Below, piece by piece: positions 8,446 to 23,461 of a stretch of 64,000 nt of DNA (positions are counted from its first letter, which is position 1; each line of letters starts with the position of its first letter). The notes beneath the pieces were generated by a model. It was not told the DNA's origin, did no database searches, and saw only the letters and a program-made list of their open reading frames with translations. Source of the DNA: Myxococcales bacterium (GTDB taxonomy: Bacteria; Myxococcota; Myxococcia; Myxococcales; Myxococcaceae); contig JACPVI010000081.1 in assembly GCA_016191815.1 (NCBI GenBank), positions 124,001 through 188,000 of the forward strand, read 5' to 3'. A program made the translations under genes and the position numbers.

Positions 8446-10953
8446 ATGGCCGAGAGGACCAAGAAGAAGACCGCCACCGCCCGCCGGGCGCGCCCCGCCA
8501 AGGTCAAGACCGCCCGCCGCCGCAAGGCGGCCGCCGCTCAGGCGCCCAAGCCTAGAGCTCGCCTTGGTCGACCAGGGGAGACGCAAGGGCGCAACGGCCG
8601 CACCCGCTACCTGGTGGTGGTGGAGTCCCCCGCCAAGGCGAAGACGATCAAGAAGTACCTGGGCGCCCCCTACACGGTGAAGGCGTCGATCGGCCACGTG
8701 AAGGACCTGCCCAAGAGCAAGATGGGGGTCGACATCGAGCGCGGCTTCACCCCCCAGTACGAGGTGCTCAAGGGGAAGGAGAAGGCGCTGGCGGAGATCA
8801 AGCGCCACGCCGCCCTGGCCGACCGGGTGTTCCTCGCCACCGACCCCGACCGGGAGGGGGAGGCCATCGCCTGGCACATCAGCGAGGAGATCGGCCACCC
8901 CAACCCCTGCCGGGTGCTGTTCAACGAGATCACCAAGAAGGCGGTCCAGCAGGCGATCGACAACCCCACCACCCTGAGCCGCGACAACTACGACTCGCAG
9001 CAGGCCAGGAGGATCCTCGACCGGCTGGTGGGGTACCAGATCTCCCCCATCCTCTGGAAGAAAGTGCGGAGGGGCCTCTCCGCCGGAAGAGTGCAGTCAG
9101 TGGCCGTCCGCCTGGTGGTGGAGCGCGAGAGTGAGATCAAGGCCTTCGTGCCCCAGGAGTACTGGACGGTGGAGGCGGACCTGGAGGCGAAGAACCCTCC
9201 GCCGTTCAAGGCGCGGCTGGCCAAGCTCGACGGGCAGAAGGCGGAGATCAAGGACCAGCCCACCGCCGAGGAGATCTCCAAGGAGCTGAGCGCCCAAAAG
9301 TTCGTGGTCGCCAAGGTGGAGAAGCGCGAGAGGAGGAGGAATCCTCCGGCGCCGCTCATCACCTCCAAGCTGCAGCAGGAGGCCGCCAACCGGCTCCACT
9401 TCACCGCGAAGAAGACGATGACCCTCGCCCAGAGGCTGTACGAGGGCGTCGAGCTTGGGGAGGAGGGCAACGTCGCCCTCATCACCTACATGCGGACCGA
9501 CTCGGTGCGGCTGTCCGCCGAGGCGGTGGAGCAGGTCCGGGCGCTGATCGCCAAGCGCTACGGCGAAGAGCATCTGCCTCCCGAGGCGGTGGTCTACCGC
9601 TCGAAGAAGAGCGCTCAGGACGCCCACGAGGCGATCCGGCCGACCTCGCTCGAGTACCCGCCGGAGCGGGTGAAGGACTTCCTCGAGCCGGACATGTATC
9701 GGCTCTACGAGCTGATCTGGAACCGCTTCGTCGCCTGCCAGATGAAGCCGGCGGTCTACGATCAGACCTCGGCGGAGATCACCGCCGGGCGGGCGACCTT
9801 CCGGGCCAGCGGGTCCACGCTCAAGTTCCCCGGCTACCTCAAGATCTACGGGGCCGGCCTCACTTCGGAGGAGGAGGCCGAGCGCGAGAAGGCCCGCGAC
9901 GAAGAGACCGACACCGCCGAAGCGCCGTGGGAGCTGCCGCCGCTCGAGGAGGGCGAGGTGCTGCGCCTGATTCGCCCCATCGCGCCGGAGCAGCACTTCA
10001 CCCAGCCGCCGCCCCGCTTCTCCGAGGCCACCTTGGTGAAGGAGCTAGAGGAGCAGGGGATCGGAAGGCCTTCGACCTACGCCGCCATCCTCTCCACCAT
10101 CCAGGAGAAGAAGTACGCGGAGAAGATCGAAGGCCGCTTCCACCCCACCGAGCTGGGGAAGATCACCACCGAGGAGCTGGTGAAGGCCTTTCCCAACGAG
10201 ATGGACGTCCAGTTCACCGCGGGGATGGAGGAGAAGCTGGACCAGATCTCCGAGGGGCAGCTCGGCTTTAGGAAGGTGCTCGCGGACTTCTACGGCCCCT
10301 TCCGGGAGCACCTGGCGCGCGCCGAGGTCCACATGCGCGACGTCAAGCGCGAGGAGATCAAGACCGACCTCTCCTGCGAGCGGTGCGGGAGCGCGATGGT
10401 GATCCGCTGGGGGAAGATGGGCCGCTTCCTCGCCTGCAGCGGCTACAACGACCCGAACCTCCAGTGCAAGAACACCAAGGACTTCAAGGAGGTCGACGGG
10501 AAGATCGTCGCGGTGGAGGAAGAGGGCACCGACGAGAAGTGCGAGAAGTGCGGCCGGCCGATGGTGATCCGCCGGGGCCGCTTCGGGCGCTTCCTCGCGT
10601 GCTCGGGCTACCCGGAGTGCAAGACCTCCAAGCCGCTCTCGATCGGAGTGGCCTGCCCGGAGTGCAAGGTGGGCTACCTCACCGAGCGACGGAGCCGGCG
10701 CGGGAAGGTCTTCTTCGGCTGCCACCGCTACCCCGAATGCAAGTTCGCCGCGTGGGATCGGCCGCTGCCCGAGGCGTGTCCCTCGTGTGGTTCGCCCTAC
10801 CTCTTGCAGAAGTACTCGCGGCGGGACGGACCGTTCATCGCCTGCCCCAACAAGGAATGCGATTACCGCCGCGCGGCGGAGAGTGAGCCCCAGGCTTCCG
10901 AATCGCCCCCTCCGGCCGTGGCCGCCGCGGGGCCCGTCACCTCCAGCGCCTGA
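8446..10953 (+). CDS. topA: DNA topoisomerase I (type IA) with four zinc ribbons
   Basis: 835 residues. A ~50-residue Lys/Arg/Ala-rich tail precedes the TOPRIM domain (VVVESPAKAKTIKKYLG; catalytic Glu60; later TDPDREGEAIAWH). The active-site Tyr348 is in ITYMRTDS. Four C-terminal zinc ribbons start near residue 644 (CERC..C, CEKC...C-C, CPEC...C-C, CPSC...C-C). It relaxes negative supercoils. The basic N-terminal extension, not found in E. coli TopA, resembles histone-like tails common in high-GC bacteria. The gene follows dprA by 25 bp, so co-transcription is likely. It ends with a Pro/Ala-rich tail of ~25 residues. Confidence 0.97.
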   Translation: MAERTKKKTATARRARPAKVKTARRRKAAAAQAPKPRARLGRPGETQGRNGRTRYLVVVESPAKAKTIKKYLGAPYTVKASIGHVKDLPKSKMGVDIERGFTPQYEVLKGKEKALAEIKRHAALADRVFLATDPDREGEAIAWHISEEIGHPNPCRVLFNEITKKAVQQAIDNPTTLSRDNYDSQQARRILDRLVGYQISPILWKKVRRGLSAGRVQSVAVRLVVERESEIKAFVPQEYWTVEADLEAKNPPPFKARLAKLDGQKAEIKDQPTAEEISKELSAQKFVVAKVEKRERRRNPPAPLITSKLQQEAANRLHFTAKKTMTLAQRLYEGVELGEEGNVALITYMRTDSVRLSAEAVEQVRALIAKRYGEEHLPPEAVVYRSKKSAQDAHEAIRPTSLEYPPERVKDFLEPDMYRLYELIWNRFVACQMKPAVYDQTSAEITAGRATFRASGSTLKFPGYLKIYGAGLTSEEEAEREKARDEETDTAEAPWELPPLEEGEVLRLIRPIAPEQHFTQPPPRFSEATLVKELEEQGIGRPSTYAAILSTIQEKKYAEKIEGRFHPTELGKITTEELVKAFPNEMDVQFTAGMEEKLDQISEGQLGFRKVLADFYGPFREHLARAEVHMRDVKREEIKTDLSCERCGSAMVIRWGKMGRFLACSGYNDPNLQCKNTKDFKEVDGKIVAVEEEGTDEKCEKCGRPMVIRRGRFGRFLACSGYPECKTSKPLSIGVACPECKVGYLTERRSRRGKVFFGCHRYPECKFAAWDRPLPEACPSCGSPYLLQKYSRRDGPFIACPNKECDYRRAAESEPQASESPPPAVAAAGPVTSSA

Positions 10954-17908: not shown

Positions 17909-18553
17909 ATGGCCGGCCAGCGACCCTTCAACAACCCGTTCACCGGGCTGAAGCTGAAAGCCGTGGCGGAGACGACGCCGAAGCCGGCGCGCTTGGCTAA
18001 GGCCGCAGCCGAGCCGGACGATGAGGGCGAGTTGTTCCGCCTGGCGGTGGGCGAGGTGACGCCGCTGCGCAACCCGAAGGGCCTCGCGCCGCCGAAGGCG
18101 CCTCCCACCGCCGCGTCCCTGCGCATCGTCGACGAGGAGATCGAAGCCCTGACGCGCCTGTGCGAGCTGGTCGCCGGGGAGGGGCCTTTCGATCTCTCCG
18201 ACTCGGACGAGTTCATCGAGGGCCACGTGCAGGGCCTGGACGTCCGGATTCTCCACAAGCTCAGCGCGGGTGAGTATTCGCCCAGGGCTCACCTCGATCT
18301 GCACGGCCTCTCCAGGGCGGAGGCCAAGGTGGCGCTCGAGCGGTTCGTGCAGAAGGCCAGGCTGGACGGACACCGCTCGGTGCTGGTGGTGACCGGTCGC
18401 GGGCTGCACTCCAAGGACCAGCTTCCGGTGCTCAAGGCCGGCGTACAGGGGTGGCTCTCGCGGGGGCGCCTCGCCCGGCAGGTGCTTGCCTTCTCCACCG
18501 CCCGGCCGCAGGACGGGGGCGCGGGCGCGCTCTACGTCCTCTTGCGGCGGTGA
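17909..18553 (+). CDS. smr: Smr-domain (MutS2-type small nuclease domain) protein
   Basis: 214 residues from ATG 17909 (MAGQRPFNNPF); ATG 17894 is in frame and would add five residues. The N-terminal half is a Pro/Ala-rich linker with acidic patches. The C-terminal ~90 residues are a Smr domain: LDLHGLSRAEA, a basic helix, VLVVTGRGLHS, and a final strand AGALYVLLRR. The DLHG and TGxGxHS motifs mark the endonuclease fold. Stand-alone Smr proteins act on DNA or stalled-ribosome mRNA (SmrB). The last 27 codons plus the stop are duplicated at 21189-21272. Confidence 0.9.
   Translation: MAGQRPFNNPFTGLKLKAVAETTPKPARLAKAAAEPDDEGELFRLAVGEVTPLRNPKGLAPPKAPPTAASLRIVDEEIEALTRLCELVAGEGPFDLSDSDEFIEGHVQGLDVRILHKLSAGEYSPRAHLDLHGLSRAEAKVALERFVQKARLDGHRSVLVVTGRGLHSKDQLPVLKAGVQGWLSRGRLARQVLAFSTARPQDGGAGALYVLLRR
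18470..18553 (+). repeat. Direct repeat, copy 1: 3' end of smr
   Basis: These 84 bp (27 codons and the stop) recur at 21189-21272 with 78/84 identity. All six differences fall at third codon positions and are silent. It marks the left boundary of an accessory insertion. Confidence 0.9.
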
Positions 18554-18667
18554 GCGCGGAGCGGGTCGGGGGCGACTGGGCTAGGGCCCGCCCGGGGGCT
18601 CCGGCTTCACGTGCGGGCGGGCGTAGGCATCCAGCAGGCCCGGGAGCGCTTCGGGGTTTGGGCGGGA

Positions 18668-19516
18668 TTAGTCATGCGGCCACTGGTACGTGAGCGACAA
18701 CCAGGGAATGGGCACCACGGACCAGGGCCCTCGTTTGGTGAACGGCCACACCCCGCCGATGTCGGCCGAGAACCGCTCACCAAAGATGCGCGCGGCCGCC
18801 GCTACGAAGAGGTAGAACTCCCCGCGCCTGAGGAAGATCGGCATCAGCCAGTTCTCAGCCACAAGCGCGACGTTCTCCCCCACCCGGATGTTGCCACTCA
18901 GAGCGACGATCATCGCCGGTGGATCGAGGATGTCGGCGACGCTGCCGCTGATGAGGAAGGGGACTCCCACCGAGAGACTGACGTGCGCATCGGGCTCTCC
19001 AAACGTCGCGGTGGAAAAGACGTTGCCGCCCAAGAGGGGGCGGTCGAAGAACAACATGATGAAGAAGGCCTGAGCGCCAACCGCGAGGTGGAACTGGTCG
19101 TATACTCGCACGCCGGCCTTCAAGGCGACGGTTCCGTTCAGACCTGCTACGCCGGCCAGCAAGGCCGGAAGGAAGCTCTCGGCATGCAGCGAGAGGTGAT
19201 CGGAGACCCCCACGCCCACCGACGAGAGGAATAGCTCTATCTGCGAGTACTGGACCTCCCCCTGCCTGAGCATGAACGCGGAGGCCCCGTAGAGGTACCG
19301 CGTCCTGGTGGGGTCCTCCAAGCGACGCGTGCGCTTGCGCCGAAGCCACGCGTCCGGGTCAATACTGGGCCGCGGAAGGTACGGCTCGACCCGCGGCTCC
19401 GATGGTTCGGACGGGACTGGTGGCGGCGAGGCAACGCCTCCGTCCAGCTCGTTGGCTCGCGCCAATCCGGTAGCGGCCACGAGCGCCGACACCACCGCGA
19501 AAGCGTCGTGGCGCAT
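18668..19516 (-). CDS. Hypothetical exported, beta-rich (outer-membrane-like) protein
   Basis: About 282 residues from ATG 19516, where a typical signal peptide begins (MRHDAFAVVSALVAATGLARA); an earlier ATG at 19630 adds a charged leader and is less likely. After a Pro-rich spacer and a basic stretch (DAWLRRKRTRRLE), the chain from ~95 on shows alternating beta-strand patterns rich in aromatic and Gly residues, typical of Myxococcota outer-membrane beta-barrels of unknown function. I do not recognise the family. It lies inside the segment bracketed by the smr direct repeats and is divergent from the lipoprotein gene at 19666. It ends KRGPWSVVPIPWLSLTYQW, with aromatic residues typical of a last barrel strand. 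Confidence 0.7.
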   Translation of the reverse strand: MRHDAFAVVSALVAATGLARANELDGGVASPPPVPSEPSEPRVEPYLPRPSIDPDAWLRRKRTRRLEDPTRTRYLYGASAFMLRQGEVQYSQIELFLSSVGVGVSDHLSLHAESFLPALLAGVAGLNGTVALKAGVRVYDQFHLAVGAQAFFIMLFFDRPLLGGNVFSTATFGEPDAHVSLSVGVPFLISGSVADILDPPAMIVALSGNIRVGENVALVAENWLMPIFLRRGEFYLFVAAAARIFGERFSADIGGVWPFTKRGPWSVVPIPWLSLTYQWPHD

Positions 19517-19665
19517 TTGCCCCGCATAGCCGAGCAGATCGCGGGCTGCGGCGCCAGCGGCCCCGCCGGCGAGAGCTTGGGCGAGCCGGCGCCGGTTTGA
19601 CTCCTCCGCGGGCGAGGCGGACAATTTCACTGGGGGGGAAGATGCCCCTTCCCGAGGAGGATTCC

Positions 19666-19941
19666 ATGTCTCGCCTCTTGGCCTCCGCGGCTGCGCTGAT
19701 CGGGTTCCTCTGCTTGCACGGATGCACGTGCGGACCAGTCCCGTGCAAGAAGGAGGCGGGCCCGGAGGAGGTTTGCATCCCGGGCGGGACGTTCACGATG
19801 GGACACGCGAAGCTGCCTATCCCCGAGCGGAGTCCTGCCAGCACGTCTGTGGTGGAGGAACGATGTGCGGCGACGCGCCCTCCTGCCGAATCGGCGCGTG
19901 CCGAAGCGCCATCGCCAACGACCGGACCGCATTCATCGTAG
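19666..19941 (+). pseudogene. Lipoprotein gene fragment with start of an FGE-sulfatase domain (frameshifted)
   Basis: An excellent start (GAGGAGG 5 nt before ATG 19666) opens a lipoprotein with lipobox LCLHGC (Cys20), a Cys-rich spacer and CIPGGTFTMGH, the opening of a formylglycine-generating-enzyme (FGE-sulfatase) domain. After ~47 residues the frame loses family character, and coding sense continues in another frame (CQHVCGGGTMCGDAPSC) toward the next feature. Either a frameshift lies at about 19805-19835, or an FGE gene was cut and joined to another gene. The 91-residue product as read is not a complete protein. Confidence 0.6.
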
Positions 19942-21167
19942 CTCCGCTCGGCTGCGAAACCGAGGCGCCTTCCGTGCGCGTCTCCCCCTCGGGCGACTAC
20001 CAGATCCACCTCGAAGAGGCAGCCTCCTTCGCCATCGTGGGGACGATGGATGACAAGGGGAACCTCTCCCAGATGGGGCGGACGCAGCTTCGAGGGCGCA
20101 TCTGGCTCAACGAGAGTCCGGACCCCAGCGGGCGCCGACTGGACATCGCCAACATGAGGCTCCGGGCTGCGGACTTCGTCGTCTCCGGTGGGCCGCTCGG
20201 CAGCGTGAAGCTCAACATCACCAACACCGCCACCTTCCTCGGGACCCGCATTCCGGCGGTCGAACAGCAGGACGGCACCTTCCTGGTAGCGCCCGGCCAG
20301 GTTCGGCTGGGAATCGAGGCGACCATCAGCGGAGCGACCGGCGGGATCGAGTTCGTCAATCAAGGCCCGTTTGCCGCCACCTTCGACGCGGCGGGCGGTT
20401 TCTTCTCATTCGACGGCCGAGGGCGAAATGAAGCCGGGCAAGGCGCGGTCATCCACATCGAGGGCCAAGTCGTCAATCGGCCGCCCATCGCCGACCCGGG
20501 ACCGGACCGCACCGTGGAATGCCAATCGCCCACCACGACTCCCGTGCTCCTCGACGCGAGCCGGTCGCGCGACCCCGACGTCGGCGACGCCATCTCTCAT
20601 TTCCAGTGGTTCGAAGGGCTGGCAGGACTGTCCAACCAGAAGACCGCCACCGTCCTGGCGACGCTCGGCCTGCACAGCTACTCCCTCCACGTCTACGACG
20701 GCAAACTCGGGAGCGGGAGCGTCCAGCACCGCGTGGAGGTCGTCGACACGACTCCTCCGGTGCTGGACCTGGGCACCGTCACCGTGTGCCTGTGGCCGCC
20801 CAACCACGAGTTCGCCCGGTTCGAGCTGGGTCGAGAGATCGCCTTCTCGCTCTCGGACAAGTGCGACGCGAATCCTTCGATTCAGATCATCGACCTGTTC
20901 AGCGATGAGCCGGCCAATGCCCTGGGGTCGGGCTCGACGCAGCCAGACGTGGCCCACGGGAGCACCGCGGGGTGCGTGCGCGCCGAGCGGGCCGGACCAG
21001 GAGAAGGCCGCACCTACCTGCTGACCGTCCAGGCCGAGGACCACTCGCCGAACAGGAACAAGGCTCAGGCCAAGCTCCGCCTGCTGGTGCCTCACGACAA
21101 CTCCGGGCATGCCGGCTGCGTCCGCGCCGAAGGCCGGCACGAGCTGGACTCCACCTGCTTCGAATAG
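19863..21167 (+). CDS. PKD/cadherin-like surface protein, probably the continuation of the frameshifted lipoprotein
   Basis: 434 residues if read from ATG 19863, though coding character begins earlier in this frame (~19815), so the true N-terminus is probably the lipoprotein signal at 19666. A beta-rich N-terminal half is followed by a PKD-like domain (NRPPIADPGPDRTVEC ... LLDASRSRDPD ... VVDTTPPVLDLG) and a C-terminal segment with WPPNHEF, SDEPANALGSGSTQPD and GHAGCVRAEGR, a module I associate with myxobacterial surface proteins. It is likely cell-surface or adhesive; no enzyme motif is seen. It sits within the smr-repeat-bounded insertion. Confidence 0.65.
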   Translation: MCGDAPSCRIGACRSAIANDRTAFIVAPLGCETEAPSVRVSPSGDYQIHLEEAASFAIVGTMDDKGNLSQMGRTQLRGRIWLNESPDPSGRRLDIANMRLRAADFVVSGGPLGSVKLNITNTATFLGTRIPAVEQQDGTFLVAPGQVRLGIEATISGATGGIEFVNQGPFAATFDAAGGFFSFDGRGRNEAGQGAVIHIEGQVVNRPPIADPGPDRTVECQSPTTTPVLLDASRSRDPDVGDAISHFQWFEGLAGLSNQKTATVLATLGLHSYSLHVYDGKLGSGSVQHRVEVVDTTPPVLDLGTVTVCLWPPNHEFARFELGREIAFSLSDKCDANPSIQIIDLFSDEPANALGSGSTQPDVAHGSTAGCVRAERAGPGEGRTYLLTVQAEDHSPNRNKAQAKLRLLVPHDNSGHAGCVRAEGRHELDSTCFE

Positions 21168-21188
21168 AGACTCCGGTAACCGGAGGGC

Positions 21189-21272
21189 CTGGCCCGGCAG
21201 GTACTCGCCTTCTCCACCGCCCGGCCACAGGACGGCGGCGCGGGCGCGCTCTACGTCCTTTTGCGGCGGTGA
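21189..21272 (+). repeat. Direct repeat, copy 2: detached smr 3' end
   Basis: This copy encodes LARQVLAFSTARP through GALYVLLRR and the stop, identical in protein to the end of Smr but with six silent DNA differences. There is no smr gene body upstream, only the end of the PKD-like gene 21 bp away. It marks the right boundary of the insertion. Confidence 0.9.
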
Positions 21273-21364
21273 CCGCCGGCGGCGCTGAACGCCTCCGACG
21301 GCGAGCTTTCTTCCTGCGAGTCGAGTACCCTCCCGGCCGGGCCGGAGAGGGTGGAGACGCGACG

Positions 21365-22033
21365 ATGCGGCCTTGGTGGTTTCTCCCGGCTGCCTCCGCG
21401 CTGTTTGGCTGCGTCTGCTTCAACCCGGTTCCCGAGATCGATCCCACGGTCGACGCCTCCAAAGCGGGCGGGGGAGGTGACGCCAGCCTCACTGTGGACA
21501 GTGGGTCCGATGGCGGAGCCGGAGACGCCGGGCCCCAATGCCGGGTCGCCTCCGACTGTCCGTGGCTCCCCTCCGACGCCGGGCTGTATTACCCGTGCCC
21601 CAACAGCGGGGGCATGAGCTGTATCGACGGCCGCTGCATCTTCGAGTGCGACTCCGGGCGGGCCTGCGAAACCGACGCCGGGAGCCATTGCCTTCTCTGC
21701 CGGAGTCCGGTGGAGAAGACCGATTGCGGAGCCACCGTGTGCTCGGCCATCTGGACCTGCCGCATGCAGGTATTCTCCAGCACCTGCGCCCAGGGCCCGG
21801 TGGAGGGCGCCTCCTTCGACGTCATCCGCCAGCCAGACTGCTCCTGGAAGGTGGCGGTGCCCGACGGAGGGCCGGTGGTGGGCGGGTACTGGGACCTCGA
21901 CGTCGGCCAGTCCTTCGGGACCTTCCCCGGCGTGGAGGGCACCTGCGTGGGACGAGATCTCTTCACCGGCGTCCCCCGCATGCAGTGGAGCTGTCCCGGC
22001 GGCTGCAACTTCATCGAGATGGGGTGCGAGTAG
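21365..22033 (+). CDS. Cys-rich hypothetical lipoprotein
   Basis: 222 residues from ATG 21365, preceded by GGTGGAG. Signal MRPWWFLPAASALFGC gives lipidation at Cys16. A short Gly/Asp-rich spacer follows (GGGGDASLTVDSGSDGGAGDAG), then a domain with about 20 Cys in patterns such as CRVASDCPW, CIDGRCIFECDSG and CHLLCRSP-like pairs, consistent with disulphide-bonded surface repeats found in many Myxococcota lipoproteins. It ends CPGGCNFIEMGCE. The function is unknown. It lies just after the second smr repeat copy. Confidence 0.75.
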   Translation: MRPWWFLPAASALFGCVCFNPVPEIDPTVDASKAGGGGDASLTVDSGSDGGAGDAGPQCRVASDCPWLPSDAGLYYPCPNSGGMSCIDGRCIFECDSGRACETDAGSHCLLCRSPVEKTDCGATVCSAIWTCRMQVFSSTCAQGPVEGASFDVIRQPDCSWKVAVPDGGPVVGGYWDLDVGQSFGTFPGVEGTCVGRDLFTGVPRMQWSCPGGCNFIEMGCE

Positions 22034-22147: not shown

Positions 22148-22399
22148 ATGACGTGGGCTTTTCAGGACGCGAAGGCGAGGCTCAGTGAGGTGGCCCGGAG
22201 GGCGATGACCGAAGGGCCGCAGCTCGTGACGGTGCGAGGTCGGCCGGCGCTCGTGGTCATTTCCCAGGCCGAGTTCGCAGCGCTGAACAAGCGCAAACGC
22301 CGCCCGCCGCTGATCGAGCTGTTTCGCCATAGCCCCATCGCCGGTGAGCGGATCGACCTGGTGCGCTCGCGCGACACGGGGCGGCGGGTTGATCTGTGA
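22148..22399 (+). CDS. Antitoxin of the Phd/YefM family
   Basis: 83 residues. The N-terminal DNA-binding part matches Phd/YefM (WAFQDAKARLSEVARRAMTEGPQLVTVRGRPALVVISQAEF, quoted here only by its key blocks FQDAKARLSEV and VISQAEF). The C-terminal tail (~55-83) is the expected toxin-wrapping segment. Its TGA overlaps the GTG of the PIN toxin gene (GTGA), so the two are translationally coupled. It should bind the toxin and repress the operon through the upstream inverted repeat. Confidence 0.88.
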   Translation: MTWAFQDAKARLSEVARRAMTEGPQLVTVRGRPALVVISQAEFAALNKRKRRPPLIELFRHSPIAGERIDLVRSRDTGRRVDL

Positions 22400-22821
22400 G
22401 CTTCTTGCTCGACACCTGCTTCATCTCGGAGCTCACCAAGCGGCGTCGCGACCAGGGAGTGCTCAGGTGGTTGGAGGAGCAAGACGAGAGTGACCTGTTC
22501 CTTTCGATCGTGACGATCGGCGAACTCGAGAAGGGGCTCGCGAAGGTACGCGACGCCCGGCGGCGAGAGCGTCTAAATGAGTTCATCGAGGTACAGGTTG
22601 TCGACAGGTTCCGGGAACGCATGATCGAGATCGGCGAGCCAGTATGGCGCCGCTGGGGAACCCTCTGCGGGGTTGCCGAGAGAGCCGGGAGGCCGTTGCC
22701 GGTGCTCGATGCGCTGGTCGCGGCGGCAGCTCAAGTCCACGGAATGACGGTGGTGACGCGCAACGAAGCCGATTTCCTGCGGTGCGAGGTGCCCGTGGTG
22801 AATCCTTGGCGCAGGGCTTGA
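22396..22821 (+). CDS. vapC: PIN-domain toxin (VapC/FitB-like ribonuclease)
   Basis: 141 residues from GTG 22396. Acidic residues of the PIN active site are in place: Asp6 ([11 protein letters not shown]), Glu in TIGELEKG (~43), Asp in [10 protein letters not shown] (~105) and a fourth in TRNEADF (~125). PIN toxins cleave tRNA or rRNA when the antitoxin is lost. Pairing with a Phd-type rather than a VapB-type antitoxin is common. The operon sits between the accessory lipoprotein and hslV, extending the accessory block that separates smr from hslVU. Confidence 0.88.
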
Positions 22822-22933: not shown

Positions 22934-23461
22934 ATGTTCCACGGCACCACCATCGTGTGCATCCGCCGCGACGGCAAGGCGGTGATCGCCGGCGACGGCC
23001 AGGTGACCCTCGAGAAGACGGTGATGAAGGCCTCCGCCCGGAAAGTCCGGCGGCTGGCGGACGGGGCGGTGATCGCCGGCTTCGCCGGCAGCACCGCCGA
23101 CGCCTTCACCCTCTTCGAGCGGTTCGAGGCCAAGCTCAAGGAGCACCAGAAGAACCTGGCGCGCGCCTGCGTCGAGCTGGGGAAAGACTGGCGGACCGAC
23201 CGCTTCCTCCGCCGGCTGGAGGCCCTGCTGGTGGTGGCGGACCAGGAGCGGACCTTCGTGCTCTCCGGGGCGGGCGACGTGGTGGAGCCGGACCACGGCA
23301 TCGCGGCGGTCGGCTCGGGCGGGGCCTACGCGCTGGCCGCAGCCCGCGCGCTCATCGAGCACACTCCGATGTCCGCCAAGGAGATCGCCCTCACCTCGCT
23401 GGGCATCGCCGCGGAGATTTGCATCTACACCAACTCCAACATCACCCTCGAGGAGATCTGA
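22934..23461 (+). CDS. hslV: HslV (ClpQ) proteasome-like peptidase subunit
   Basis: 175 residues. [17 protein letters not shown]: removal of the first four residues exposes the catalytic Thr5. The [35 protein letters not shown] and [16 protein letters not shown] blocks are canonical. It forms the double hexamer that degrades proteins unfolded by HslU. It begins 112 bp after the toxin gene and is followed 4 bp later by hslU. Confidence 0.97.

Follow-up and report, generated by a model that had tools for sequence, protein, structure and literature searches.

Integrative elements are found in the 3' ends of genes, prophage e14 in icd being an example. Homology-facilitated illegitimate recombination has been proposed for the type VI secretion effector/immunity arrays of Vibrio cholerae (PMC5361080) and inferred for variable segments in E. 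coli (PMC2884548), and the cases outlined in PMC3240628 comprise three naturally competent species plus E. coli conjugation. In nature, illegitimate gene gain is so far known mainly by inference from a small number of toxin loci. At the locus described here, accessory genes lie between an intact smr gene and a second copy of its 3' end, an arrangement that shares features with each of these systems.

The duplicated smr tail and its insert

The window (the whole stretch of DNA analysed, 64 kb) was compared with itself. The best ungapped self-match pairs 18468-18557 with 21187-21276 (E = 1.4e-30); a 72-bp pair at 10375/10540, which is unrelated, is the sole further match at E <= 1e-4. The features of the locus are as follows.

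17909..18553, + strand: smr, intact, 214 aa, with the upstream repeat copy as its final 84 bp (18470-18553); Pfam Smr, E 2.9e-23; xerC-smr order conserved in the family
18468..18557, + strand: upstream copy of the duplicated tract, 83/90 identical to 21187-21276
18579..18666, - strand: short, weak remnant between smr and the beta-barrel-like gene, its frame ending in LLDAYARPHVKPEPPGGP and a stop; 50 bp of it also on contig C11
18668..19630, - strand: beta-barrel-like accessory gene (cargo), C11 paralog at 76% DNA identity, no Pfam match
19597..21167, + strand: PKD-type lipoprotein gene (cargo), frame-broken, C11 paralog at 86-88% DNA identity
21170..21187, + strand: hairpin CTCCGGTAACCGGAG, end of the lipoprotein unit, where C11 similarity stops; right cargo/stub junction
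21187..21276, + strand: downstream copy, a 3'-terminal stub of smr truncated on its 5' side, from self-comparison with the upstream copy
21365..22033, + strand: second small lipoprotein gene, present once in the genome and taken as cargo that belonged to the resident locus
22148..22821, + strand: Phd/YefM antitoxin (22148-22399) and PIN toxin (22396-22821) pair directly upstream of hslV, from Pfam
22934..23461, + strand: hslV, conserved right neighbour of smr in the family, from Pfam Proteasome and synteny

Our recount of the repeat agrees with the first-pass annotation, which had reported that the 84-bp end of smr recurs with silent differences only. The coding bases at 18470-18553 and 21189-21272 are identical at 78/84 positions, and the six differences (CTC/CTG, GTG/GTA, CTT/CTC, CCG/CCA, GGG/GGC and CTC/CTT) are all silent third positions, both copies encoding the same 27 residues plus the stop. 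No further smr copy was found in the genome itself. When each tail copy was compared with the smr genes of 29 relatives, at most 69/84 bases matched (a few relatives with extended ends are not comparable in register). As the copies are 78/84 identical to one another versus no more than 69/84 to relatives, they have a recent common source, within or near the genus.

The same annotation had described the insert as a beta-barrel-like gene plus a frameshifted PKD/FGE-like lipoprotein gene with no integrase visible. Both genes are present and the lipoprotein frame is broken, its signal-peptide start (19597-19941) and body (19722-21167) lying in different frames, but for neither ORF was there a Pfam match at E <= 0.1, and the names beta-barrel, PKD and FGE reflect only appearance and distant similarity. 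Homologs of the beta-barrel-like gene are encoded in six other genomes of the family at 31-46% amino acid identity, whereas the homolog search with the reverse-strand peptide between smr and this gene gave none that was convincing. On contig C11 the paralogs of both cargo genes stand in another arrangement, together with a further fragment of the lipoprotein gene end. Both paralogs lie at L073 10893-16137 on that contig, which also carries a separate scar of a lipoprotein gene 3' end at L073 12817-12877. The cargo resembles its C11 copies up to 21187, the start of the smr tract, and this fixes its right junction at that position. Only a few GC-rich bases are held in common at the join, with no long shared sequence. 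The hairpin at this junction was considered as a special signal and rejected, since it is not unusually stable (z -0.66); the junction hairpins of the window and of contig C48 (see below) are not clearly more stable than shuffled sequences, and none is obvious at the junction on contig C2.

Inspection of the insert bore out the missing integrase, in that no Pfam integrase was found. The search for a serine integrase, confined to the insert, likewise ended with its two genes lacking a Pfam match. The tyrosine recombinase nearest to the insert is the host xerC, upstream, which was rejected as the integrase of an element because it is a conserved host gene whose place in trmFO-WD-xerC-smr-hslV is kept in the family.

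Silent divergence and the smr-hslV interval in relatives

The weight of the silent differences depends on the null. With free drift of both copies, all differences would be silent with a chance of 0.0007-0.001. The fair null, however, is that the intact gene is constrained and the stub alone is free; with a silent probability of 0.46-0.49 per difference, six silent differences then have a chance of 0.009-0.013. Note that the first of the six falls in the boundary codon and may derive from the end of the insert, which leaves 5/5 silent differences and a chance of 0.02-0.027. The purely silent divergence had been taken as coding constraint on both ends. The six silent changes stand, but against drift of a free stub they give a p of only about 0.01-0.03, and the silent-only argument for the smr tails is suggestive, short of decisive.

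By comparison of gene order, trmFO-WD-xerC-smr-hslV-hslU-argD is the ancestral arrangement. In 13 distinct related genomes (both genes placeable, with repeated records of the same contig taken as one) the spacing between smr and hslV is 25-117 bp in six and 0.4-2.7 kb in seven. The occupied gaps hold unrelated genes, namely Imm22-like genes near hslV, a short-chain dehydrogenase and an FG-GAP repeat protein, and a variable gap with such contents indicates that accessory genes come and go between smr and hslV. In several relatives the immunity-protein-22-like genes lie just before hslV (L085 9662-10198, L088 10762-11115 and L098 786-1211). The empty and occupied sites that the first pass had proposed to compare were both found, but the occupied ones carried unrelated genes and no second smr tail. 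That tail was seen in 0/100 related smr loci, 16 of which lack the strict tail motif so that the test is less sharp there. A search of genome contigs for close relatives returned 80 loci at 42-61% identity, none of the genus, when an alignment served as query, and no match with the smr protein as query.

Repeat pairs elsewhere in the genome

Spaced direct repeats were listed in 2.25 of the 6.77 Mb of this genome (89 contigs). In this sample two further inserts, on contigs C2 and C48, have an intact gene on one side and a repeat of that gene's final 66-113 bp on the other, and a third pair is a candidate.

C2 294384-294496 and 303229-303341: tail pair of a crotonase gene, 113 bp, 94.7% identical
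C48 18802-18882 and 21241-21321: tail pair of a small membrane-protein gene, 66-81 bp, 93% identical
C85 83190-83252 and 84310-84372: candidate third further pair, 63 bp, at the end of an HNH gene, less clean

The crotonase tail recurs 8.8 kb on, and the 8.7-kb insert, which adjoins clpX, consists of one 2466-aa lipoprotein ORF with Ig-like, TIG and NHL domains. The C48 tail recurs 2.4 kb on, and its cargo, of 60.5% GC versus 69%, is made up of two lipoprotein-like genes, a PKD lipoprotein gene related to that of the window and a second small gene. The next gene follows directly after the C48 stub, which places the resident junction on the right. The C85 pair is probably another insert of this form. 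By eye, the stretch of about 1 kb between the C85 copies appears to hold transposase remnants.

The repeats at smr, C2 and C48 end 0-4 nt past the stop codon. Among the seven repeat pairs that can be compared, four have their end no more than 20 nt from a stop (p about 6e-5, a rough value, as the pairs were sorted by hand and the gene density was assumed), and in the 2.25-Mb sample no pairs at 5' ends or in intergenic DNA were seen. The other spaced repeats are mostly internal gene repeats, tRNA ends and non-coding repeats. The tRNA-end pairs are at C22 135438/140093, C4 84686/90682 and C15 64076/70920. Small elements lie between these duplicated tRNA 3' ends (C22 135438-140135, C4 84686-90812 and C15 64076-70968), and an integrase fragment is located near the boundary of the C15 element, at 70601. 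With this integrase as the positive control, the search for tyrosine recombinases found none in the smr, C2 and C48 inserts. As background, 1.4 Mb of other genomes yielded four pairs: two non-coding repeats, an internal ABC-transporter fragment and a xerC fragment of L086. The last is a decayed copy between xerC and smr (L086 6915-7167 and 8550-8803); it ends short of the stop codon and is a loose parallel, not an exact one.

The two further stubs differ from their intact genes in other ways than the smr stub. The C2 stub has five changed residues, and its end, RAPNFTGA, is nearer to RRAPKFTGA of the best homolog than to RSPHFSGA of the intact gene. Judged from these residues, and the sample is small, the C2 tails would support divergence before joining, as if both had once been functional. 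The C48 stub shows one F>S replacement and one silent difference. Note that the replacements on C48 and C2 fit decay after an initially identical duplication as well. The presence of similar scars elsewhere in the genome points to a trace of gene acquisition rather than to a new mobile element.

Origin of the insert and comparison with known systems

The account that we favour, holding it with a little more belief than doubt, is that DNA of a relative bearing smr plus cargo used homology for its left join and was linked illegitimately at its right end, the resident smr tail being left behind as a stub. On the incoming DNA, from a related lineage, the smr of that lineage would have stood ahead of the beta-barrel and lipoprotein genes. 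This smr would have paired with the resident one and taken its place through homologous recombination, the exchange lying at the 3' end or upstream of it, and the other end would have been joined illegitimately just after the lipoprotein hairpin, 84 bp before the resident smr stop. The outcome would be added cargo, one complete smr and the stranded resident tail, which would be 21187-21276, before the small lipoprotein gene, Phd/PIN and hslV. The left side has a full in-frame smr whose tail diverges from the stub, as would fit a homologous join. Because the smr-hslV gap varies in the family, two haplotypes that differ in cargo are to be expected. As in homology-facilitated illegitimate recombination, the right join has no or only short homology, and the insert lacks a Pfam integrase or transposase. 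Inference enters with the donor and with the direction in which DNA moved, and again with homology at the left join and end joining at the right. The genome has genes for Ku and ComEC, which makes end joining and DNA uptake plausible, and either may have been involved.

The tail could also have been duplicated within the lineage at the time of cargo insertion, by a staggered break with fill-in or by replication template switching, in which case the copies were identical at birth and the intact gene then changed silently while the stub drifted freely. The absence of any replacement among the 5-6 smr differences (p 0.01-0.03) and the family-like residues of the C2 stub argue against this, and a mechanism blind to position would not predict repeats that end at stop codons, nor the lack of 5'-end and intergenic pairs in the sample. 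Yet such duplication explains all the pairs without a donor, and the mostly replacement differences of the C48 and C2 stubs are those expected of a free copy. Moreover, the L086 xerC fragment is clearly decaying, and the cargo paralogs on C11 mean that the cargo could have moved within the genome. We regard this origin as unlikely, though it deserves serious weight. An artefact is very improbable, namely that two strain haplotypes of the locus were joined end to end in metagenome assembly. Misjoined strains with different smr-hslV cargo would look identical to what is seen, the genome is fragmented, at 89 contigs, and most of the relatives in the collections are MAGs. However, at 21187 the join has just a few bases in common with the departed sequence, too little for a k-mer misjoin, the assembly contains no second smr locus or strain contig, and the same form occurs at two other loci.

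The first-pass annotation had preferred a decayed integrative element that targeted the smr 3' end and brought a substitute end. The architecture and the silent divergence do match att sites in gene 3' ends, the substitute end restores smr as that of such an element would, and the genome has elements at tRNA ends, one with an integrase fragment near its boundary. This reading nevertheless fares poorly and is improbable: no tyrosine recombinase is present in any of the three inserts, no second tail marks the same site as occupied in the 100 related loci, and the target genes differ. As similar inserts lie behind unrelated genes, a site-specific integrase would not explain them. No convincing mobile smr tail came up in the phage and viral collections searched, and the one good match among plasmids, from Legionella, is an annotated Smr/MutS family gene and no tail fragment. 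A transposon with a long target duplication was rejected, as the insert has neither a Pfam transposase nor terminal inverted repeats and the duplication spans 84-90 bp. The evidence instead favours what had been offered as the alternative, xenologous recombination with the smr-linked locus of a relative.

If recombination of this kind is confirmed, gene-tail stubs would preserve past illegitimate gene gain in legible form, each stub marking a foreign-DNA join, the resident copy and the rough divergence of the donor. Several stubs in one unselected genome would allow such events to be counted in nature, although the smr locus taken singly is of modest significance. A further step, which we consider decidedly doubtful, would be a recurrent and possibly dedicated myxobacterial route by which lipoprotein cassettes without an integrase are inserted behind housekeeping genes with duplication of the last 60-110 bp.

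Elements of the e14 type resemble the smr locus in that a duplicated gene end, with mostly silent differences, flanks accessory DNA, but they carry their own integrase and have one fixed target gene, whereas the smr insert has no integrase. The tRNA-end elements of this genome (C22, C4 and C15) similarly have a resident gene 3' end duplicated a few kb apart; however, their target is a tRNA gene, and inside or next to them there are still integrase or excisionase-like pieces. The cases inferred in E. coli (PMC2884548) and those outlined in PMC3240628 share with the smr locus one homologous and one illegitimate join and the gain of foreign DNA without an integrase. The laboratory cases, as outlined in the latter, start from a known donor, whereas at smr the natural donor is only inferred. 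Of the published models, that for the effector arrays of V. cholerae comes closest (PMC5361080). There, as at smr, homology acts on one side and an illegitimate join on the other, with the old 3' end and its downstream partner pushed back behind the new module. In the arrays the displaced effector gene is exchanged for a different one (PMC5361080), whereas here the gene is a housekeeping gene and its protein end is unchanged.
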